DNA of 64,000 nt, from positions 40,355 to 104,354 of the forward strand of contig JAISUK010000015.1 of assembly GCA_031272075.1 (NCBI GenBank), read 5' to 3'. Below the pieces are notes generated by a model that saw only the letters and a program-made list of their open reading frames with translations, had not been told where the DNA came from and made no database searches. Made by a program: the position numbers and the translations under genes. This document shows, piece by piece, positions 11,267-63,926 of the stretch. The stretch is from Dysgonamonadaceae bacterium (GTDB taxonomy: Bacteria; Bacteroidota; Bacteroidia; Bacteroidales; Azobacteroidaceae). How positions within the stretch are numbered: the stretch's first letter is position 1; each line of letters begins with the position of its first letter.

Positions 11267-12520
11267 TCAAGCGCGCTTGGATCCGATTTTATGGCCGAAA
11301 ACTGCGTAAAACAATATATAGAGGTAGCAAGGGATAAAAATCAGATACGCCATACGAAAGTCGGCGGGCGTAGCGGTAGCGCCGGTCTTGAAAGCGTCCA
11401 GCAGTAACCCGAACAACAGCGGCAGCGCGGCTCCACCTACAATGGCAACCACCATCAATGCGGCTCCGGGTTTGGTGAACTTCCCCAGTCGGGTGATGGT
11501 CAGCGCCCAGATCGCACCCCACATGATGGAATGGGCGAAACCCAATCCCGACAGGCAATAGATAGCGATCTGCGGGGGAAGAAACGCCATGATGACGGAA
11601 GTCGCCAGCGCTATCGACAGGAAGATGACCAAGGCTCTATTTTGTGGAATCAGCTGAAGGACAAAAATACTCACAATGTAGCCGGTAATCATTCCCAAAG
11701 GCCCGAAAGCGGCATATTGTACCGGAGATTCCATCCCGATCGATTTGGCAAAATCAATCACCGAAGCCATCGGCAGCGTTTCTACTCCGACATACAAGAA
11801 CAAAGCGACCATTCCCATGATCAGGTGTGGAAAATGCCAGACGCTTTTCTTCCTGTTTGCTTCGATAATATCTTCATCTTCAGTCTCTTGCGATTCGCTT
11901 TCTCCTTCGGCTTTCACCTCCGGAAGCGAGACGAAAATCATGATGAGCGCAAACAGTGCGATGATGCCGCCCGCCAGTCCGAAAGGCACTGCCGCCTGAT
12001 CCAGTTCCGGTTGTTTGACATCAATAAACAGGCTCAGGAATACAGGTCCCAAATACCAGGCCGACTGGTTCATTATTCCCATGAGGCACATACGTTGCGC
12101 GGCTTTTTCTGTTGGCCCGCAGATCGTTACATAAGGATTGATGGCTGTTTGCAACAATGTATTGCCTATTCCGCCGACAAAAGAAGCTGCCAGAAATAAA
12201 TAAAATCCTGAAATGGATGGACTTAACAGGGCAGAAGGAATAAACATCAACACGCCGAGACTCATGATCAGCAGAGCGGCGACGAGCGATTTTTTGTAAC
12301 CGTATTTTTTGACAACCTGCCCGGAGGGCGCGCCGAAGAGCAGGAACGCTGAAAAAGTGGCGGTCAGGATCAGATAGGAAGCGCCCTTACTCAACGAGAA
12401 CGTCGATTCCAGAATGGGCACCATAATACCGTTGATTCCCACGCCAAAGCCGATCACGAAAAACGACAGTGCGATGATAATCAATGGAAAAAAATAAACA
12501 GGGAGTTTGGGTTGTTTCAT
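11267..12520 (-). CDS. MFS sugar transporter, MurT-like
   Basis: A 417-residue, 12-helix major facilitator of the FucP/GlcP-type sugar branch, with FGAPSGQVVKKYGYKKSL between helices 2 and 3 and a long charged loop around residues 210-225. It is the last gene of the minus-strand cluster, after murQ and the kinase. This transporter-kinase-etherase set is the one described for N-acetylmuramic acid scavenging in Tannerella forsythia (MurT, MurK, MurQ), so MurNAc is the likely cargo; glucose or another hexose remains possible. The start is the ATG at 12520; a TTG two codons upstream belongs to the leader repeat. Confidence 0.8.
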   Translation of the reverse strand: MKQPKLPVYFFPLIIIALSFFVIGFGVGINGIMVPILESTFSLSKGASYLILTATFSAFLLFGAPSGQVVKKYGYKKSLVAALLIMSLGVLMFIPSALLSPSISGFYLFLAASFVGGIGNTLLQTAINPYVTICGPTEKAAQRMCLMGIMNQSAWYLGPVFLSLFIDVKQPELDQAAVPFGLAGGIIALFALIMIFVSLPEVKAEGESESQETEDEDIIEANRKKSVWHFPHLIMGMVALFLYVGVETLPMASVIDFAKSIGMESPVQYAAFGPLGMITGYIVSIFVLQLIPQNRALVIFLSIALATSVIMAFLPPQIAIYCLSGLGFAHSIMWGAIWALTITRLGKFTKPGAALMVVAIVGGAALPLLFGLLLDAFKTGATATPADFRMAYLIFIPCYLYILFYAVFGHKIGSKRA

Positions 12521-12609
12521 CGTCAATAATTTGTTTTTAAAAGGTCGTATGGAATTCGCATGTCATTATTGTCATCAACTTGGATGTTTGAAAATCATGC
12601 TCGTTTCAT
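12518..12609 (-). repeat. Interspersed start-site leader, copy 1 (before murT-like gene)
   Basis: Read on the minus strand, ATGAAACGAGCATGA opens a micro-ORF (MKRA) whose stop overlaps MIFKHPS. That stop overlaps MTIMTCEFHTTF, and the element ends in ATTGACG-ATG, where ATG is the transporter start. One T is missing from the usual GACGTATG, so the ATG-to-ATG span is 89. The CEFHTT glutamate codon is GAA here and GAG elsewhere, a synonymous change. The leader fills the gap between the kinase and transporter genes. Confidence 0.85.
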
Positions 12610-14349: not shown

Positions 14350-16272
14350 TTATTTGATGTTTCGTACTTTATCTATCACCACATTCAATGTGCCTTCCGG
14401 GAACTGCGTCGGCTGTCCGTACCAAAAGAAAGATCCATAGCCTTCGTAATCCCTGGCTTTGATGTGTGGATCGGAAGGCAGGTAGCTGGCGACATCGTTG
14501 GTATAACCGATTACCGAAACGGGTTTTTCGGGCCACAGGTTTTTGATTGCGAGACCATACTCCGTAGTTGCTTCACGCGAGAGGCCGATCAGTCGCCAGT
14601 TGCCGATGTCAAACACCTGGATGTAGACCGGCATTGATGTCGGCATGGTGTTCGTAGCATAATAATTCAACATTTTGTCTGCCCAACGAACATCCCGCCC
14701 GTGTCCGTCGCTGGGAACACCGCCCGGCGCCGTCTCCATCAGCGGCAGGTTTTTGTCTCTAAATGCCACGACCTCCTCTTTTGTCCATGGCTGGATGGGA
14801 ACGCAGATAGAGTCTGTCTTATAACTGATGCTCCCACTGAGCGGAACGTTTTTTTTTGCCAATGCCCTCAGCACATCGGCGGCCAACATGCCACCCGATA
14901 CCTTGAAAGGATGCTTGGGATTGATGTCGCCGGCGCATCCTTGTAAGAAGATGCTGTTTTCGTAGCCCGTTGTCTGGAGTGTGTCTTTGGCATATCCGGG
15001 GAAGTTGGGACTGATGTTGAAATGTCCGGATGAAGGATCCGCATACACCGGATGGCAGCCTGTAAGAAACAACAGGGACTTGTGTTGCTGGTCTTTTGAA
15101 GTCACTTGCAACACCTGTACCGCGTTGTCGTAAATCGCCAAATCGTCGCTCAAACTCCGGTTCCAGCCGATGCCGGTGGTGTCTTGCGCAAACGAGAGAT
15201 TGGCAGGCAGCATATTGTCGAGCGCTTCCTGGATGGCGCGGACGATTCCGGCACGGACTACCTTGTTGAGGTAAGTGCTATCGGGATATTGACATTGGAT
15301 GCCCCAGGTTTGCCAGTTTTGCGTTACCGGGACATAATGGGTATGTGAAGCGTTGATCATGATTGCTTCTGCGGGGATGCCCTGTTGTTCTGCAATTTCC
15401 TGTTTGATACTCTGTGTGAAAGAATAGTCCAGGCCGCACACGTCCGCGCCGACAATCACCACTGTTGATTTTCCTTTTTTGATGGCCATTGCCCTGGCCG
15501 ACATCGTGCCTTCGGTACTGTGTCGGCTCCGATACAGGTGGCCGTCGGCTGCAAGGGCGTAGAGCTTGTGACGGGCATACAATACCTGCTTGACGTCGAT
15601 GGTATAGGTTTCGCCGTTCTTATATCCGATGCGTTGCCATTCAGCTTGGTTGGGTTGGCGTTGCAACAGGTAATTGTCGGCGGTTGCAGCGAAGAGTTTC
15701 TCCCCGTCTCCGGTCAGACTGATCACATTTTGGGCGTCACCTTTCTGCTGCCAAGCGATATTTTTGTCGGAAACTGTTCCTTCCCACAGTTTATTTTTCG
15801 CCACTGCATAGAGGTAAGTGCCGGAAGCAGCGATGGCTGTTGCTCCGTCAAGTCGTCCGACGTTAGCCCATTCTTTCGCCGATGGGTCGGCGGTAGCCAA
15901 TACGTTGCCGTCAGGTGTTATCGCATACAGGCGGTCGTGGAAAAATACCGCTGAAAGTATCCGAGGAACCTTCCCCGCCGGTTGAGCGGTATTGGGGTCA
16001 TCGTTTTGCAGCGTTGCATATTCTCCTTTGCTGTTAGCGAAATAGAGTTGGTCATCGATCGATGCCAATGTGACGGCATCGGGCAATAACCCCAGGTCGT
16101 CCCAAGTGATGGTAAACCTGCCCAGCGCAGGTCCGGCGTATCCGGCCAGGGCTAAAGAAATCGTTTCATCCGTTGGCTCGATGCTTACGGACGAAGTTCC
16201 AACCTGATAGGTCGTAGAGCCGCAAGCGCACAATCCAATCGCTATTCCGATGAGGAATATTGTGTTTTTCAT
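14350..16272 (-). CDS. Neutral/alkaline ceramidase-like lipoprotein with inserted five-blade propeller
   Basis: A 640-residue lipoprotein (lipobox LCAC). The first 45 residues and the region from about 250 onward match the neutral ceramidase-type hydrolase: MSARAMAIKKGKSTVVIVGADVCG, NASHTHYVP with zinc-binding His, LTGCHPVYADPSSGHFN, FLQGCAGDINP. Between them, about residues 48-250, lie five repeats of roughly 40 residues (LYFANSKG, LYAITPDG, LYAVAKNK, LFAATADN, LYALAADG) that look like a five-bladed propeller inserted in the N-terminal strand region. It lies between the DegT gene and murQ. The true substrate is unknown; amide hydrolysis of an N-acyl group is a reasonable guess. Confidence 0.75.
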   Translation of the reverse strand: MKNTIFLIGIAIGLCACGSTTYQVGTSSVSIEPTDETISLALAGYAGPALGRFTITWDDLGLLPDAVTLASIDDQLYFANSKGEYATLQNDDPNTAQPAGKVPRILSAVFFHDRLYAITPDGNVLATADPSAKEWANVGRLDGATAIAASGTYLYAVAKNKLWEGTVSDKNIAWQQKGDAQNVISLTGDGEKLFAATADNYLLQRQPNQAEWQRIGYKNGETYTIDVKQVLYARHKLYALAADGHLYRSRHSTEGTMSARAMAIKKGKSTVVIVGADVCGLDYSFTQSIKQEIAEQQGIPAEAIMINASHTHYVPVTQNWQTWGIQCQYPDSTYLNKVVRAGIVRAIQEALDNMLPANLSFAQDTTGIGWNRSLSDDLAIYDNAVQVLQVTSKDQQHKSLLFLTGCHPVYADPSSGHFNISPNFPGYAKDTLQTTGYENSIFLQGCAGDINPKHPFKVSGGMLAADVLRALAKKNVPLSGSISYKTDSICVPIQPWTKEEVVAFRDKNLPLMETAPGGVPSDGHGRDVRWADKMLNYYATNTMPTSMPVYIQVFDIGNWRLIGLSREATTEYGLAIKNLWPEKPVSVIGYTNDVASYLPSDPHIKARDYEGYGSFFWYGQPTQFPEGTLNVVIDKVRNIK

Positions 16273-16372
16273 ACGTCAATAATTTATTTATTTTTTAAAG
16301 GTCGTATGGAACTCGCATGTCATTATTTTCATCAACTTGGATGTTTGAAAATCATGCTCGTTTCATACGTTA
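16270..16372 (-). repeat. Interspersed start-site leader, copy 2 (before ceramidase-like gene)
   Basis: Same architecture on the minus strand. An outer AACGTATGAAACGAGC, the three micro-ORFs (MKRA; MIFKHPS; MKIMTCEFHTTFKK), an AT-rich spacer slightly longer than in the other copies, and TTGACGTATGAAA with the gene's ATG at 16272. The ATG-to-ATG span is 94. The outer flank AATATTAACGTATGAAA repeats the inner one, so the unit has direct repeats at both ends. Confidence 0.85.
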
Positions 16373-29641: not shown

Positions 29642-32044
29642 TTACAGGATGAGGTTGTCGCGATGTTTTACAGCCTGCTTTTTCCCGTTGATGATGATGG
29701 TTTCCAGCGATTGGAGCGGCGGGAGATGCAGCACGATTTTCTGAGGTCTTTCCCTCCATTCGCCGGAGAAAGCAACGGTGAGCGTTTTGCCGTCAGTCGA
29801 TTTTTTGAAGCGGAGATTGACGGGTCCGTATTCCGTAGGCATCTTTTCAAACACCGTCTCTTCTTCCGAAGACAGCCAAGCCAGGGGGCATAGTCGCAAC
29901 AAATGCAATTCGCCGTTCACAATCTGCTCGTCGATCACCGACAGTCGGGCGAGGTTGAATGCCATAGCTACCGTCATGGGCGTCGACTGTATGCCGTGGC
30001 GATGTTCACACCCGATATATGTGTTTTGCGCCGATGCGCCGATCATCAGACTGTACATCCCTTCCAGGAAATGTTTCCTGTCCCGCAATTGCCATGAATG
30101 GAACACATTCCAGCTATAACACGGCTCACAGGTAGAAATTTCCCTGTCTAGAAAAGGTCGACAAAGGGGATTAAACCGTGTGCCGTACAGTTTTTTGTTT
30201 GGCCCTTCTCGGAAAAAATCCACGATGTCGCGCATGATCTGATCGTCTGCATCCATCAGTCCTGCCCAAACCAAAATCATCGGGCCTGTATCCAGGTAAA
30301 AGGCATCCGAGAAATAATGGTACGGCGCAGGTTGCAGGGTGAGGTTTGTGGGCGGTTTATAGCGTTTGTTGCCTTGTGCGTCCGTCCAACGTTGTCCGTC
30401 TTCCGCCAACTGGTGGTAGACTTCATTGAATCTTTTCCTGAAATCATTCGCAAAATGGTCAAATTCCGCTGCACGGGGATGGTTGATAAGGTATAAAAAA
30501 CGGACGGCAGTAGTAAGTCCTTTATAGCTCCAAGCCATATTCCACACCGCCTGCACCGGCATCAACTCGTCGGTGGCATTGCCGGGCGGAAGCATGCCCT
30601 TGACGCCGTCGTGATTTTCTTTGGCGCACATATCTTTGATGAAATCGCATCCCTTGACGATCGGTTCCGTCCATTTTTCTATGAATGACATATTGTTAGA
30701 CAGCAACGCATGCGTGCAAACTTCGTGCATGATCGCTCCGTGATCGGTGAGCCAGTCAAAAGCCGTCAGGTGCTTGGGTGTGCTGAAATATCCGGGATGC
30801 AGGTCGTATGCCGGTCCGGGTGGTTTCACTGTGCCCTGGTTTTTCCTGAAGAGTTCGAGGTGTCGGTCTACTGCTTCATAATATCCCATGAGGTCGAGCA
30901 ACATGTGCGCCGTAGCAGAAGTCGGTGTGCTCCACAGGTTGTCGTAACCCCACGAACCCGTCAAGAAAGTATATTCTCCGGAGACATAATCTTTTTCCGC
31001 CACTACTTCGGCGAGTTTCAAATTCTGTGAAAGCCATTTATTGAAAAAATCTTCCGGAACGTGCACTTCGGCGGCTGTGGCGGGTGTGGTTTTCCAGTAA
31101 TTTTCCGATTGCGCAAGCGCACTTTCGAATCCCAAGGCTGCCTCCTGTTCCATTTCCTCCAAAGATTCGGGTAGCATCGGCAGTAAGAGATCGACATGGT
31201 CACCCACTTGTGCTGCAAAATCGATTTTTAAGTTGTAAATGCCTTCTTTAAATTCGGAAAAAATCACTTTTCCTGCATTTACAGGCAATACGGTCATCCT
31301 CACTTTGCCGTCAGGTTCCAGGATATTCATTCCCATTTTGTCGTTTTGCTTAAAATCTACGCTTTTCAATTGCTTGGAGTAGGGAGCCAACGCCGGATTG
31401 ATATCCACCGTAATGCCGTCGTCTTGCAGATAGCGTTGTGCATGAAAATAATATAGCCTGCTGAGTTGCATCGAGAAGGTGAATTTTTCGGGGTGGCGGA
31501 GTGCATCCACATGCGTTACCGACAGGCGTATCCAGGCATACAGCGGTTCAATGCCGGATTGTACTTCGGTCGCGCCTTTGATGTGAGCGAACACTTCCTG
31601 CCGCACTACCAAGCCTTCCTGCAACGGGAAGTCCGTCCATAAGACAGGCGTCTGCTTGTCGAAACGCCAGCCTTGCAGCCCGTGTCCGCCATCTACACGC
31701 CACTGAGAAGTGATCGTCGCAGGCAGTTCTTCGGGATTGCCGTTTGCCGAAGGAATCAGTTTCAACATAAAATCCTGTCCGAGCCATTTCAATGCATGCG
31801 GGCGAGCGGGCGTCCAATTGGGACAGGGTTCGGCCATGATGGCGCCGTTGTAAAGAACGTTGAAACGAAAATAATGGTCTTTCCAACCGATGGGCGTCCA
31901 TACATGCCGTTGGTCGGGCCACCACAGTTTTGCCAGCTCTACATTCGGTTCGTTGTCCGGGCTGTATACAGCAGGCTTTCCCGCAAACAATGATGCTGCC
32001 GCGATGCTTGCTGACAGCAAGAAAGTGATAAGCAGTGTTTTCAT
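29642..32044 (-). CDS. Secreted six-hairpin-type glycosidase-like protein
   Basis: 800 residues with a signal peptide. An N-terminal beta-sandwich (WWPDQRHVWTPIGWKDHYFR; NVLYNGAIMAEPCPNW) is followed by an alpha/alpha-barrel-like domain with TGSWGYDNLWSTPTSATAHM, LTDHGAIMHEVCTHALLSNN, WNMAWSYKGLTTAV and YTGCEHRHG-like elements, and a short C-terminal beta-domain. I recognise the general (alpha/alpha)6 glycosidase architecture but not a named GH family. It is the last gene of the second cluster, converges with the kinase gene, and is preceded by leader copy 3, so its expression may be set apart from susCD. Confidence 0.6.
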   Translation of the reverse strand: MKTLLITFLLSASIAAASLFAGKPAVYSPDNEPNVELAKLWWPDQRHVWTPIGWKDHYFRFNVLYNGAIMAEPCPNWTPARPHALKWLGQDFMLKLIPSANGNPEELPATITSQWRVDGGHGLQGWRFDKQTPVLWTDFPLQEGLVVRQEVFAHIKGATEVQSGIEPLYAWIRLSVTHVDALRHPEKFTFSMQLSRLYYFHAQRYLQDDGITVDINPALAPYSKQLKSVDFKQNDKMGMNILEPDGKVRMTVLPVNAGKVIFSEFKEGIYNLKIDFAAQVGDHVDLLLPMLPESLEEMEQEAALGFESALAQSENYWKTTPATAAEVHVPEDFFNKWLSQNLKLAEVVAEKDYVSGEYTFLTGSWGYDNLWSTPTSATAHMLLDLMGYYEAVDRHLELFRKNQGTVKPPGPAYDLHPGYFSTPKHLTAFDWLTDHGAIMHEVCTHALLSNNMSFIEKWTEPIVKGCDFIKDMCAKENHDGVKGMLPPGNATDELMPVQAVWNMAWSYKGLTTAVRFLYLINHPRAAEFDHFANDFRKRFNEVYHQLAEDGQRWTDAQGNKRYKPPTNLTLQPAPYHYFSDAFYLDTGPMILVWAGLMDADDQIMRDIVDFFREGPNKKLYGTRFNPLCRPFLDREISTCEPCYSWNVFHSWQLRDRKHFLEGMYSLMIGASAQNTYIGCEHRHGIQSTPMTVAMAFNLARLSVIDEQIVNGELHLLRLCPLAWLSSEEETVFEKMPTEYGPVNLRFKKSTDGKTLTVAFSGEWRERPQKIVLHLPPLQSLETIIINGKKQAVKHRDNLIL

Positions 32045-32131
32045 ACGTCAATATTTTTTTTAAAGGTCGTATGGAACTCGCATGTCATTATTGTCATCAA
32101 CTTGGATGTTAGAACATCATGCTCGTTTCAT
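32042..32131 (-). repeat. Interspersed start-site leader, copy 3 (before six-hairpin glycosidase)
   Basis: On the minus strand the first ATG (32131) overlaps the stop of the upstream lipoprotein gene as ATGA. Micro-ORF 1 (MKRA) is intact, micro-ORF 2 is cut to MMF by a changed base, and micro-ORF 3 is MTIMTCEFHTTFKKNIDV, whose stop TGA overlaps the ATG of the glycosidase (ATGA). Upstream gene, leader and downstream gene are thus tied by stop-start overlaps. The ATG-to-ATG span is 87. Confidence 0.85.
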
Positions 32132-40310: not shown

Positions 40311-40413
40311 GTTCAAAGATAAATCAAGACCCTTTTTAATAATGAGTTTAATTTCGAACCGAATATACTCACTTTGCGGAGAAAAACGTAAAAAAATGGA
40401 ATTAAGTCATGGG

Positions 40414-54925: not shown

Positions 54926-55013
54926 GTAAAACGAGCATCATTTTCAAACATCCAAATTGATGACATTAATGAAATGCGAGTTCCATACGACCCTTAAAAA
55001 AAATTGACGTATG
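54926..55013 (+). repeat. Interspersed start-site leader, copy 4 (before argC)
   Basis: The most diverged full-length copy. The first ATG is GTA and the second is ATC, so micro-ORFs 1 and 2 are dead. Micro-ORF 3 survives as MTLMKCEFHTTLKKN, with its stop inside TTGACGTATG. The inner 13-mer's ATG (55011) does not start argC but a further micro-ORF (see next entry). Confidence 0.8.
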
Positions 55014-55034
55014 AAAAAGGAGGTAAATGCATGA
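55011..55034 (+). CDS. Leader peptide MKKEVNA overlapping the argC start
   Basis: The ATG of the leader's TTGACGTATGAAA opens a seven-codon frame whose TGA overlaps the argC ATG (ATGA at 55031-55034). A GGAGG (55018-55022) inside it sits at Shine-Dalgarno distance from argC. So at this gene the element brought its own start codon, distinct from that of the gene. Confidence 0.45.
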   Translation: MKKEVNA

Positions 55035-57190: not shown

Positions 57191-57294
57191 TTATTATCGT
57201 ATGAAACGAGCATGATTTTCAAACATCCAAGTTGATGACAAGAATGACATGCGAGTTCCATACGACCTTATTAAAAACAAATGATGGACGTATG
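57191..57294 (+). repeat. Interspersed start-site leader, copy 5 (before proC)
   Basis: Outer TTATTATCGTATGAAA, intact MKRA and MIFKHPS micro-ORFs, then MTRMTCEFHTTLLKTNDGR running in frame, without a stop, into proC (ATG 57292). An extra base and two changed bases remove the usual stop. The ATG-to-ATG span is 91. The proC product could therefore carry a 19-residue extension if the third micro-ORF is translated. Confidence 0.85.
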
Positions 57295-58089
57295 AAAATC
57301 GTAATTATCGGTGGCGGCAATATGGGTGGCGCCATTGCACGCGGACTTGTGTCCGGCAGCATGTTCAAAGTGAATGACATCACGGTGATCGATGTCAATA
57401 AAAAACCGTTGGAACTCCTGCAAAGTCAGTTGCCGGGAATTCAGACAGCACTGTCGGATTATGACAGTCTGCCGAACGCAGACATCATCATCATGGCGGT
57501 AAAACCCTGGTTCATTGAAGATGTCATCTTGGATATAAAATTCAAGCTGGATTACGGCAAACAAATCCTCGTGTCGATTGCAGCGGGTGTGACCCTCAGC
57601 ATGATGGAGAAAAGCCTGTCCAAACCGAAAGAAGACATTTCGCTCCCGGCTTTGTTTCGCGTCATTCCAAATACCGCTATTGCCATCGGGCAGAGTATGA
57701 CGCTGGTGTCGACAACGAATGCCTCCGACACTCAAAAAGCATTGATATTGAAGATATTCAACGAATTGGGAAAGGCCATCTTGATGGATGAAGACCGATT
57801 GCCGGCGGGGATTGCATTGACTTCGTGCGGGATCGCCTACCTGTTCAGGTACGTCCGCGCCGCTTCACTGGCGGGGGTTGAGTTGGGATTTTATCCCTCG
57901 CAGGCACAGGAATTGATTGTCAATACGATGAAGGGGGCTGCAGAGCTGTTGCTGCACACCAATGTCAATCCGGAAGTGGAGATTGATAAAGTCATTACGC
58001 CGGGAGGAATCACGATCAAGGGATTGAACGAATTGGAAGCCAATGGATTTTCCGATGCCATCATCAAAGCGATAAAAACAAGCAAATAA
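57292..58089 (+). CDS. proC: Pyrroline-5-carboxylate reductase
   Basis: 265 residues from the ATG at 57292 (MKIVIIGGGNMGGAIARGLV). Rossmann loop GGGNMGGA, IIMAVKPWFIEDVI, LFRVIPNTAIAIGQSM and the C-terminal dimer signature TPGGITIKGLNELEANGFSD. Last step of proline synthesis, NADPH-dependent. Its place in the arginine operon suits shared glutamate/ornithine chemistry. An in-frame start in the leader (57235) would add 19 residues. Confidence 0.95.
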   Translation: MKIVIIGGGNMGGAIARGLVSGSMFKVNDITVIDVNKKPLELLQSQLPGIQTALSDYDSLPNADIIIMAVKPWFIEDVILDIKFKLDYGKQILVSIAAGVTLSMMEKSLSKPKEDISLPALFRVIPNTAIAIGQSMTLVSTTNASDTQKALILKIFNELGKAILMDEDRLPAGIALTSCGIAYLFRYVRAASLAGVELGFYPSQAQELIVNTMKGAAELLLHTNVNPEVEIDKVITPGGITIKGLNELEANGFSDAIIKAIKTSK

Positions 58090-61796: not shown

Positions 61797-61904
61797 ACAA
61801 ATTTTTGACGTATGAAACGAGCATGATTTTCAAACATCCAAGCTGATGAAAATAATGACATGCGAGTTCCATACGACCTTTTAAAAACAAATTATTGACG
61901 TATG
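61797..61904 (+). repeat. Interspersed start-site leader, copy 7 (before double-barrel glycosidase)
   Basis: The clearest copy. The 21 bases at 61797-61817 and at 61887-61907 agree in 20 positions and both contain TTGACGTATGAAA, so a 90-base unit is bounded by direct repeats. Between them lie MKRA, MIFKHPS (AGC for AGT, synonymous) and MKIMTCEFHTTF. The arms GTATGAAACGAGCATG and CATGCGAGTTCCATAC are an imperfect inverted repeat, 13 of 16 paired. The inner ATG (61902) starts the glycosidase. Confidence 0.9.
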
Positions 61905-63746
61905 AAAAACACAGCTATTATCATCAGTGTATTATTTTTGTCTGTCGTTAATCTCTATGCCCGGCAAGGACGATCGCAATGGACGGAAAAAAAGGCGTGG
62001 GCTTGGCATCAGAAAGTTGGTGCCATCAAGGGATTTAACGAGCCGTATCCGGCTTATCCGGGGATGTCGAACAAAGACATCCTGAAAAAAGCGGCGGAAC
62101 TCGGATTCAATTGTGTTCGGTTTTGGTTAAAAGGCAACACGCCCGATGAGCAAGAAACCTTTCTCCGTCAAATGATTGCCGAAGCCGACGAATTTGGATT
62201 GAAATCCTCACCTGTACTGTCGATTGAGTACATTTATTACCGCAAAGACGACTTGGGAGGAGCAAAAAAATACGTACAACAACTCATTGGGGCATTTGCC
62301 GACGATGAACGCATCGCATTGTGGGACATCTGGAACGAACCGAACTGGGCAGATGCACCTGAACGGTCGGCGAAAATCATGGACTGGCTGAAATCGGCTG
62401 TGGAATGGAGTAGGGAAATGTCACCCATTCAACCGATTTCGGCTTCTATTTTCATTGATTGCGGAAATTCTGTCGATTCCACGAACAAATACCTGGAACA
62501 ATGGCGAGCAGTGGAAGCCATGATGGATATCCATAATTTTCATTTCTACGATTGCGGACAAAGACAAAAGGACTTAGAACCCATGATCAACTATCTGAGA
62601 CAGATAAGCGATCGACCGCTGGCATGTACCGAAGTCATCGCCCGTACCAAAGGATCGTCGTTTCCTCGTTCACTGTCCGCTTTTTCTAAATACCATATTC
62701 ATTTCTTTTCCTGGGGATTATATATGAACGATCGCAATTGGACCGTTACCTGGGGCAACAGCACCTACGAACCGTTTGATCCGCCATTTCACGACTTGCT
62801 GCATCCCGACGGAGAGCCCTACGACAGAAGGGATTTGGATTGGATCCGGAATTTCCATTTTGCACAGGAAGGCGAAACGACCGACCCCGGCGCCGAAATG
62901 ACGGAACGATGGCCAAAAGACCGCGCTTGGAGATGGATGGCTCTGGGTCCCGTCAAAGGATATTCCTGCATGAAGGGAGAAAACGACAACCTGAAGCCAG
63001 AAGAGTTCACTTCTAAAGGTTATAATGCGTTGCGGATTCGATGCGACTACCGTGAATGGACAGCAGACAAACAGCATTTCTTTCAACAAATGGACGAATT
63101 GCTGGCTTCCGCAGAAAAAGCGGGTTTGCGTGTCATGCCGGTTTTGCTGACCGATGGCTACAGCAATGAAAAAGATACTGCATTGGCTGCGTATGTGGCG
63201 GATGTGATTAAACGGTATGCGACGAATCCGGTCGTCCAGGCGTGGGAGATCTACGAACATCCGGGAGAAACCCAGATCAATACGGCCAGACTGACCGCGC
63301 TGTTGCACCTGTTGTTCCGCGTTGCCAGGCTTGAATTGCCGAATCAACCCTTAACGGCAACTCCTTTTTTGAGTGTAAAAGATTTCCCCGACGATTATAA
63401 ATACCGCGAAGCATTGATACATGGCATTACGGGAGGTTGGAATCAATTGGTATGTGAGGGCGGAAGCACTCCCGAACTCTGCAACCTGGTCTGGCAATTG
63501 TCGGATATCACGGCTTTCTCCAGCGATCAAGCAGCGCCAGAAACAGGATGGCTGGCGAGCATGGCTTACCGCTACGGACGACCTGTCGTCTGCACCTCTT
63601 GGCAGTCTTCCGACAATGCTTCGGCTCAACAAACCCTCGATATTTTTGCCAAAAGTCATGTCTTTTGGTATCTTTCGGGCGATTCGCTTAACGAAGGATT
63701 AATCAAGCAGTTCCGATTCATTCCGATCAGTACGCCGATTCGGTGA
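61902..63746 (+). CDS. Tandem TIM-barrel glycosidase, second barrel inactive, C-terminus frameshifted
   Basis: 614 residues with signal peptide. Residues 30-325 form a GH5/clan GH-A-like barrel with acid/base Glu146 in LWDIWNEPNW and likely nucleophile Glu244 in PLACTEVIAR. Residues 335-570 repeat the pattern: WRWMALGPVKGYSC mirrors WAWHQKVGAIKGFN, AWEIYEHPGE mirrors the acid/base motif, and PVVCTSWQSS mirrors the nucleophile motif, so the two Glu positions are now His453 and Ser566. The frame ends early: a one-base shift near 63711-63714 would restore a YADSVRGMIYKFAWFYKKRY ending (stop 63796). Preceded by leader copy 7. Confidence 0.78.
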   Translation: MKNTAIIISVLFLSVVNLYARQGRSQWTEKKAWAWHQKVGAIKGFNEPYPAYPGMSNKDILKKAAELGFNCVRFWLKGNTPDEQETFLRQMIAEADEFGLKSSPVLSIEYIYYRKDDLGGAKKYVQQLIGAFADDERIALWDIWNEPNWADAPERSAKIMDWLKSAVEWSREMSPIQPISASIFIDCGNSVDSTNKYLEQWRAVEAMMDIHNFHFYDCGQRQKDLEPMINYLRQISDRPLACTEVIARTKGSSFPRSLSAFSKYHIHFFSWGLYMNDRNWTVTWGNSTYEPFDPPFHDLLHPDGEPYDRRDLDWIRNFHFAQEGETTDPGAEMTERWPKDRAWRWMALGPVKGYSCMKGENDNLKPEEFTSKGYNALRIRCDYREWTADKQHFFQQMDELLASAEKAGLRVMPVLLTDGYSNEKDTALAAYVADVIKRYATNPVVQAWEIYEHPGETQINTARLTALLHLLFRVARLELPNQPLTATPFLSVKDFPDDYKYREALIHGITGGWNQLVCEGGSTPELCNLVWQLSDITAFSSDQAAPETGWLASMAYRYGRPVVCTSWQSSDNASAQQTLDIFAKSHVFWYLSGDSLNEGLIKQFRFIPISTPIR

Positions 63747-63796: not shown

Positions 63797-63860
63797 TTGA
63801 GTGTTAATTATTTTTCTTCAGCATTTTTTTCTCAAACGAGCTTAAGCCTGCGCCGTAATC

Positions 63861-63926
63861 CTTTAAAAACTGGATGTCGTTATTTTTTTCATCAACTTAG
63901 ATGTTTGAAAATCATGCTCGTTTCAT
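63861..63926 (-). repeat. Decayed leader, copy 8
   Basis: Minus strand: ATGAAACGAGCATGA and MIFKHPS-type sequence (CATCTAAG in place of CATCCAAG) followed by a degenerated middle; the CEFHTT part and the TTGACGTATG end are lost. It points toward the end of the glycosidase gene, so there is no gene for it to lead. The rest of 63797-64000 is AT-rich and shows no gene. Confidence 0.7.

Follow-up and report, generated by a model that had tools for sequence, protein, structure and literature searches.

A short repeat at the starts of genes in a Bacteroidales genome is probably, judging from sequence comparison, a mobile DNA element of the non-autonomous kind. It would insert in sense at the ATG-AA with which a gene begins, and the gene would then start from the element's second ATGAA. 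The repeat was noticed in a window of 64,000 nt, namely positions 40,355 to 104,354 of the forward strand of contig JAISUK010000015.1, from the genome of Dysgonamonadaceae bacterium GCA_031272075.1 (3.02 Mb, 94 contigs; hereafter G000). A 20-base core searched in G000 with up to three mismatches gave 124 matches (65 forward, 59 reverse), and the reversed pattern gave none in the same search. Copies were read from the best 100 of these 124 core matches, so that copies with two to three core mismatches are mostly absent and the read set is biased toward intact cores. In total, 104 matches were read with their flanks and one antisense duplicate of a counted copy was removed; two of the resulting 103 (the window copy at 12516 and L066) had no right end recognised by the script, which leaves 101. 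At least 80 near-identical copies are present in G000.

All seven copies originally predicted in the window were recovered at their places and on their strands, with covariance-model scores of 70-101 bits (E <= 1.9e-11). They had been described as lying directly before genes in the gene's direction, and the final ATG is indeed the start codon of a long open reading frame (ORF) in six of the seven. The remaining case fits the proviso that the final bases may sit just before the start codon, as the copy at 54926-55015 has its ATG 20 nt before position 55031, where argC begins at the start common to its homologs. The lack of a common function among the downstream genes also holds, their Pfam matches in the window being an MFS transporter, a ceramidase-like protein, an ArgC-type semialdehyde dehydrogenase, a pyrroline-5-carboxylate reductase (ProC) and an HTH-cupin regulator, with two genes having no match. 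The window features are as follows, copy 7 being the one on which the prediction was centred.

12516..12609, minus strand: copy 1; its ATG at 12518-12520 opens an MFS transporter ORF (417 aa), although the right end is short of one base (GACGATG)
16268..16366, minus strand: copy 2; start codon of a ceramidase-like ORF (640 aa)
32040..32131, minus strand: copy 3; start codon of an ORF of 800 aa with no Pfam match
54926..55015, plus strand: copy 4; ATG upstream of argC, left ATG decayed to GTA
57201..57296, plus strand: copy 5; start codon of proC, whose element-free homologs begin at the same ATGAA
58108..58202, plus strand: copy 6; start codon of an HTH-cupin regulator, whose element-free homologs begin at the same ATGAA
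61812..61906, plus strand: copy 7; start codon of a 614-aa ORF
61797..61811, plus strand: copy 7, extension resembling the right end and preceding the left ATGAA
61812..61816, plus strand: copy 7, left ATGAA, the putative former start codon
61816..61825, plus strand: copy 7, left arm of helix P1
61859..61868, plus strand: copy 7, right arm of P1 (first half of the internal strand)
61870..61875, plus strand: copy 7, 5' arm of helix P2, CATACG, which forms the internal strand's second half and can pair with the right end
61879..61898, plus strand: copy 7, A/T-rich stretch before the right ATG, the putative replacement initiation region
61899..61904, plus strand: copy 7, 3' arm of P2, CGTATG, including the start codon at 61902-61904
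63797..63926, minus strand: eighth copy, truncated to its left half with the right end lost (covariance model 30.3 bits, E 0.0013); no gene start was seen after it, and it sits downstream of a plus-strand ORF ending at 63746

The unit has the form ATGAA-ACGAGCATG...GACGT-ATGAA, in which ACGAGC follows the left ATGAA. The 101 recognised right ends in G000 carry ATG (97), ATA (3) or CTG (1), and the triplet is followed by AA in every case, giving lysine (93) or asparagine (8) as the second codon. Among the 100 G000 copies with both ends and sufficient flank, ATGAA stands at the right end in 97 and at the left end in 87. The original prediction gave 85-94 bases between the two ATGs; the commonest length is 90 nt (49 of 100 measured G000 copies). 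Four tandem pairs (L012, L014, L046 and L099) have one ATGAA common to both units. Right-end-like bases precede the left ATGAA in 26 of 100 G000 copies, four of which are the downstream members of tandems; with tandems excluded, 22 of 100 copies carry 8-20 such bases, of variable length, as at 61797-61811 in the window. Elsewhere, three copies from one metagenome-assembled genome (MAG; L126, L166 and L208) have the same palindrome-like insert of about 70 nt within the P1 loop, four from one MAG (L147, L148, L160 and L162) are compound, with a partial unit nested in another, and a tandem triple of long-loop copies lies at G236:C1:824925-825322. A conserved peptide read from the left ATG (MKRA...) was considered and rejected, as frames and stops vary among lineages, and conservation is thus at the nucleotide level.

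Placement relative to genes was scored by counting a gene as opened when the frame from the element's ATG reached at least 60 aa or ran off the fetched DNA (two such cases, of 39 and 52 aa). On this basis, the downstream gene is opened at the element's ATG in 80 of 101 G000 copies. The other 21 comprise four upstream tandem members, 16 copies sense-upstream of a gene and one, L098, without any gene in its direction, its neighbouring genes pointing the opposite way. By simple ORF calls, the distance to the next plausible start is 5-35 nt for eleven of the 16 and about 55-308 nt for the other five. As background, 368 kb of G000 contained 215 non-coding ATGAA sites, which simple ORF calls divide roughly into 84 at starts, 73 upstream of a gene in its direction and 58 elsewhere, and a further 872 coding sites. 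Compared with these rough classes, non-tandem copies are at starts far more often (80/97 vs 84/215, p = 4e-13) and in antisense or other intergenic positions far less often (1/97 vs 58/215, p = 1e-9). As such, avoidance of coding DNA alone is insufficient to account for placement at starts. Random orientation or position relative to genes was not found genome-wide, the exceptions being L098 and the truncated relic at 63797. Of 40 covariance-model copies from other genomes, only 33 open an ORF of at least 50 aa at their ATG, and the seven misses consist of four whose next sense ORF lies 83-253 nt away, one upstream tandem half, one with none (L371) and one with misplaced coordinates (L368). The motif TAnnTTTG, the -7 promoter motif, was matched within 150 nt upstream of 98 copies 39 times in sense, whereas mononucleotide shuffles gave 8.7 matches and the antisense direction 16; of the 39 sense matches, 22 are within 40 nt of the element. 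This sense excess indicates that the element tends to sit between promoter and gene.

Comparison with homologs indicates how the copies came to be at gene starts. The original prediction had recommended comparing orthologs with and without the element, and for seven G000 genes the element-free homologs have ATGAA at the identical codon in 21 of 21 matches (at least 40% identity, alignment from the first 12 residues), 16 of which come from proC and the regulator. In the reverse comparison, six matches were scored as element-free; four of them show ATG at exactly the same codon, three of these as ATGAA, and one of the two misses (L058) actually carries the element and was aligned out of step. 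The argG gene bears the element in G001 but not in G000. Polymorphic or excised sites were not observed, which counts against mobility. Another gene (MKSFKY..) has the element both in G000 (L024) and in G003 (L261) with different lineage types, which is read as independent insertion or conversion. Bacteroidota initiate translation without Shine-Dalgarno sequences. In 74 left flanks without a right-end-like extension, A occupies positions -3, -6, -12 and -13 of the left ATGAA in 161 of 296 cells, compared with 37.9% elsewhere (p = 6e-9), and the true register is the highest of 20 shifts tried. A at these positions promotes initiation in Flavobacterium johnsoniae, according to PMC6847099. The left ATGAA thus resembles a former start that has kept the A signature of a native Bacteroidota start. 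Taken with the element-free homologs that begin at the same ATGAA, this signature indicates that gene starts were the sites of insertion and that ATGAA now stands on both sides of the repeat. Insertion at start codons is established by this homolog comparison at the level of sequence, and from it we infer mobility of the repeat. The original suggestion of a mobile leader targeting translation starts gains further support from the precise ends, the tandems sharing one ATGAA, the unrelated flanks and the spread through the phylum.

The element has the potential to form two adjacent helices, P1 between the left arm and the middle, and P2 between an internal CATNNG and the right-end CNNATG, which includes the start codon. 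One internal strand (..GTT-C-CATNNG) is therefore complementary to both the left end and the right end. In a structure-free alignment of 92 diverse copies, much of which was picked by exact core match and so favours CATACG, 95.5% of P2 cells and 73.2% of P1 cells are paired, with 36 double-change cells vs 12.7 in shuffled alignments; RNAalifold recovered P2 from this alignment and did not recover P1. A further set of 56 more diverse copies gave 112 double-change cells vs 33.1 shuffled (0 of 500 shuffles) and covariation of 0.300 vs 0.103 shuffled, with pairing in 97.6% of P2 cells and 78.6% of P1 cells, and further pair types in this set were not in excess over shuffles (24 vs 22.4; 146 of 500). 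Two P1 positions are mostly GA/GA mismatches, replaced by standard pairs in some lineages, and the P1 loop is variable in both size and sequence. The near-invariant bases are ATGAA at each end and TTCCAT in the middle. On these alignments, P1 and P2 are kept by compensatory change across the phylum.

A start codon enclosed in a covarying helix is also what would be expected of a cis-acting RNA leader under selection, that is, a translation switch that spread through its usefulness to genes: P2 would cover the start codon while P1 competes for the same CAT. The sense orientation of copies between promoter-like motifs and genes would suit such a leader, as would the retention of all six P2 pairs in 87 of 96 G000 copies (102 of 142 elsewhere), although the G000 sample is biased to intact cores and five single-sequence folds have modest stability (z -1.6 to -4.0). 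However, a switch needs neither the left ATGAA nor an obligatory right ATGAA, and the downstream genes in the window belong to no common pathway. We consider this explanation unlikely as the whole account, and a regulatory role, alone or alongside mobility, is possible. A hammerhead-like reading was also tried, because GAAAC and CUGAUGA-like motifs are present, and was rejected as the order of parts is unsuited and Rfam gives no match over the element. Nor does the element satisfy the description of a riboswitch, there being neither an Rfam match nor a pathway shared by the downstream window genes. Rfam gave no match at the gathering threshold in the window, and in four loci nothing with E<=1 overlapped the element. 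Searches of open-access literature turned up no description of the repeat, which had not been recognised in the original prediction.

If the repeat is a mobile element, the question arises of what moves it. The 2.0 Mb examined contained 195 right modules, none of which belonged to an autonomous copy or to one enclosing a transposase gene, and no cognate enzyme was found; both results count against the mobile reading. A left arm was scored within 200 nt for 176 of these, while the other 19 include one cut by a contig end (L189), one right half only (L254) and the rest with a weak nearby left end or none clear. Two far pairings were judged to be due to chance, namely L171, for which a left end exists closer by, and L132, which encloses an opposite-strand DUF2148 ORF and an ORF without a Pfam match.

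The mismatched hairpin, the internal guide-like strand and the guide-matched end recall IS200/IS605 and REP sequences, and the repeat could be a REP-like satellite moved by a RAYT (Y1, HUH) transposase, for example of the mostly Bacteroidota subclass 2.6. Like REPs and REPtrons with their RAYTs, the element is short, dispersed and high in copy number, with a mismatched fold, guide-like bases by the hairpin and no gene of its own. In addition, Y1 is present in 26 of 28 high-copy genomes vs 10 of 14 without the element, and one Y1 transposase gene (268-720 of L288, genome G002) begins at an element (L288:183-272). However, no Y1 match was found in G000, G088 or G279, the last of which has 63 copies, and in a smaller genome comparison Y1 was equally frequent with and without the element (5/9 each). 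Only three of 50 Y1 loci have an element match, one of them abutting. Y1 was consequently rejected as the general owner, being missing from some high-copy genomes and having few loci with the element, and we regard a RAYT satellite as improbable. Moreover, copies are sense-oriented at start codons rather than scattered between genes and generally do not flank Y1 genes, whereas REPs are placed near the 3' ends of genes in PMC3733652. On the bottom strand, CGTATGG before the hairpin was compared with the GT[AG]G-type REP tetranucleotide, a consensus that subclass 2.6 lacks according to PMC6006769; the same paper describes RAYT genes of this subclass, found mostly in Bacteroidota, as having atypical flanking hairpins with copies elsewhere in the genome.

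Elements derived from IS200/IS605 share with the repeat an internal sequence that pairs with a cleavage-site-like end and a fixed orientation to the target. In these elements an internal guide pairs with cleavage site and target; the pairing between internal strand and right end covaries in the repeat, and this strand may be a counterpart of the guide. Unlike them, the repeat has its target-side bases conserved on both flanks (ATG, AA), has one hairpin and P2 instead of two subterminal hairpins, and has no link to Y1. In the near-complete chromosome G279, 13 minus and 5 plus copies lie at 0.03-1.11 Mb and 17 minus and 12 plus copies at 2.57-4.71 Mb, so there is no lock to one replication strand, unlike possible IS200/IS605-type targeting. 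A satellite of a retroelement or of a bridge-RNA (IS110) system, copied from or guided by RNA, would fit the sense position within transcripts and the variable left extension. It is nevertheless very improbable, as RVT_1 had no match in 12 of 20 element-bearing genomes (including G217 and G279) and the IS110 domain likewise had none in 12 of 20; these absences led to rejection of both as general movers and weigh against such an origin unless the copies are all old.

The element is widespread. Covariance-model matches occur in 101 of 295 Bacteroidales genomes, G000 included, corresponding to 87 of 244 good genomes and 76 of 184 genera, and in 29 of 296 genomes of a phylum-wide sample, again with G000. 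The model matched 63 times in G279, 25 times in G236 and 11 times in G217, and the element is also found in records of Parabacteroides sp. PF5-6 and PF5-9 and Proteiniphilum acetatigenes DSM 18083. As it recurs in independent assemblies, an assembly artefact is unlikely. Matches in unrelated phyla (e.g. Paenibacillus and Glycomyces) were discarded because, among those listed, the element ends are absent. Carriage by phages was rejected as well, since the three matches on viral contigs are not accompanied by the remainder of the element, and no viral match came from a second pattern.

Other families of small repeats offer partial parallels. Miniature inverted-repeat elements (MITEs), such as Correia and Porphyromonas MITEs, are small, dispersed and non-coding, and are flanked by a short repeated target. 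The element resembles them in size, dispersal, lack of coding capacity and short repeated target at its flanks, and differs in being sense-oriented at start codons; the terminal inverted repeats of MITEs are not seen, as the ends ACGAGC...GACGT share only 3 bp (ACG/CGT). Rickettsia palindromic elements are palindromic repeats that lie inside coding sequences and are tolerated by genes; the present element is also tolerated and instead replaces the start region. Integron attC sites are recognised as a folded strand, in which stems vary, structure and a few bases are kept and the loop is variable. Conservation of a folded strand is similar here, but the element has no cassette array and its target is ATG-AA at starts. 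Because no narrower family that was considered had all of its defining features established, the repeat is placed among small non-autonomous mobile repeats.

The mechanism that we favour for such a mobile repeat begins with sense-oriented insertion into the ATG-AA that opens a gene. The internal strand, by pairing with both ends, could bring the two ATG/AA junctions side by side, and an enzyme acting in trans may then cut and join a folded single DNA strand at ATG/AA. By analogy with IS200/IS605, REP and integron attC hairpins, the internal strand may serve as guide or splint. After insertion, the A-rich right end would present the second ATGAA to the ribosome and keep the gene translated, which would make insertion at starts tolerable. 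The 8-20 right-end-like bases 5' of the left ATGAA in 22 of 100 copies are not predicted by clean cutting and joining. There is about an even chance that the repeats form a phylum-wide mobile class, with an internal splint to ATG-AA, a portable initiation region that restores the start and a kind of enzyme new to such repeats.

To summarize, if this interpretation is true, the element finds room in crowded bacterial genomes by homing in on start codons and supplying a replacement for whatever its insertion disrupts. It would also present the puzzle of how a DNA insertion recognises a start codon. As the element is found in about a third of the Bacteroidales genomes searched, there may be consequences for the annotation of start sites, for 5' leaders and for the expression of many genes.
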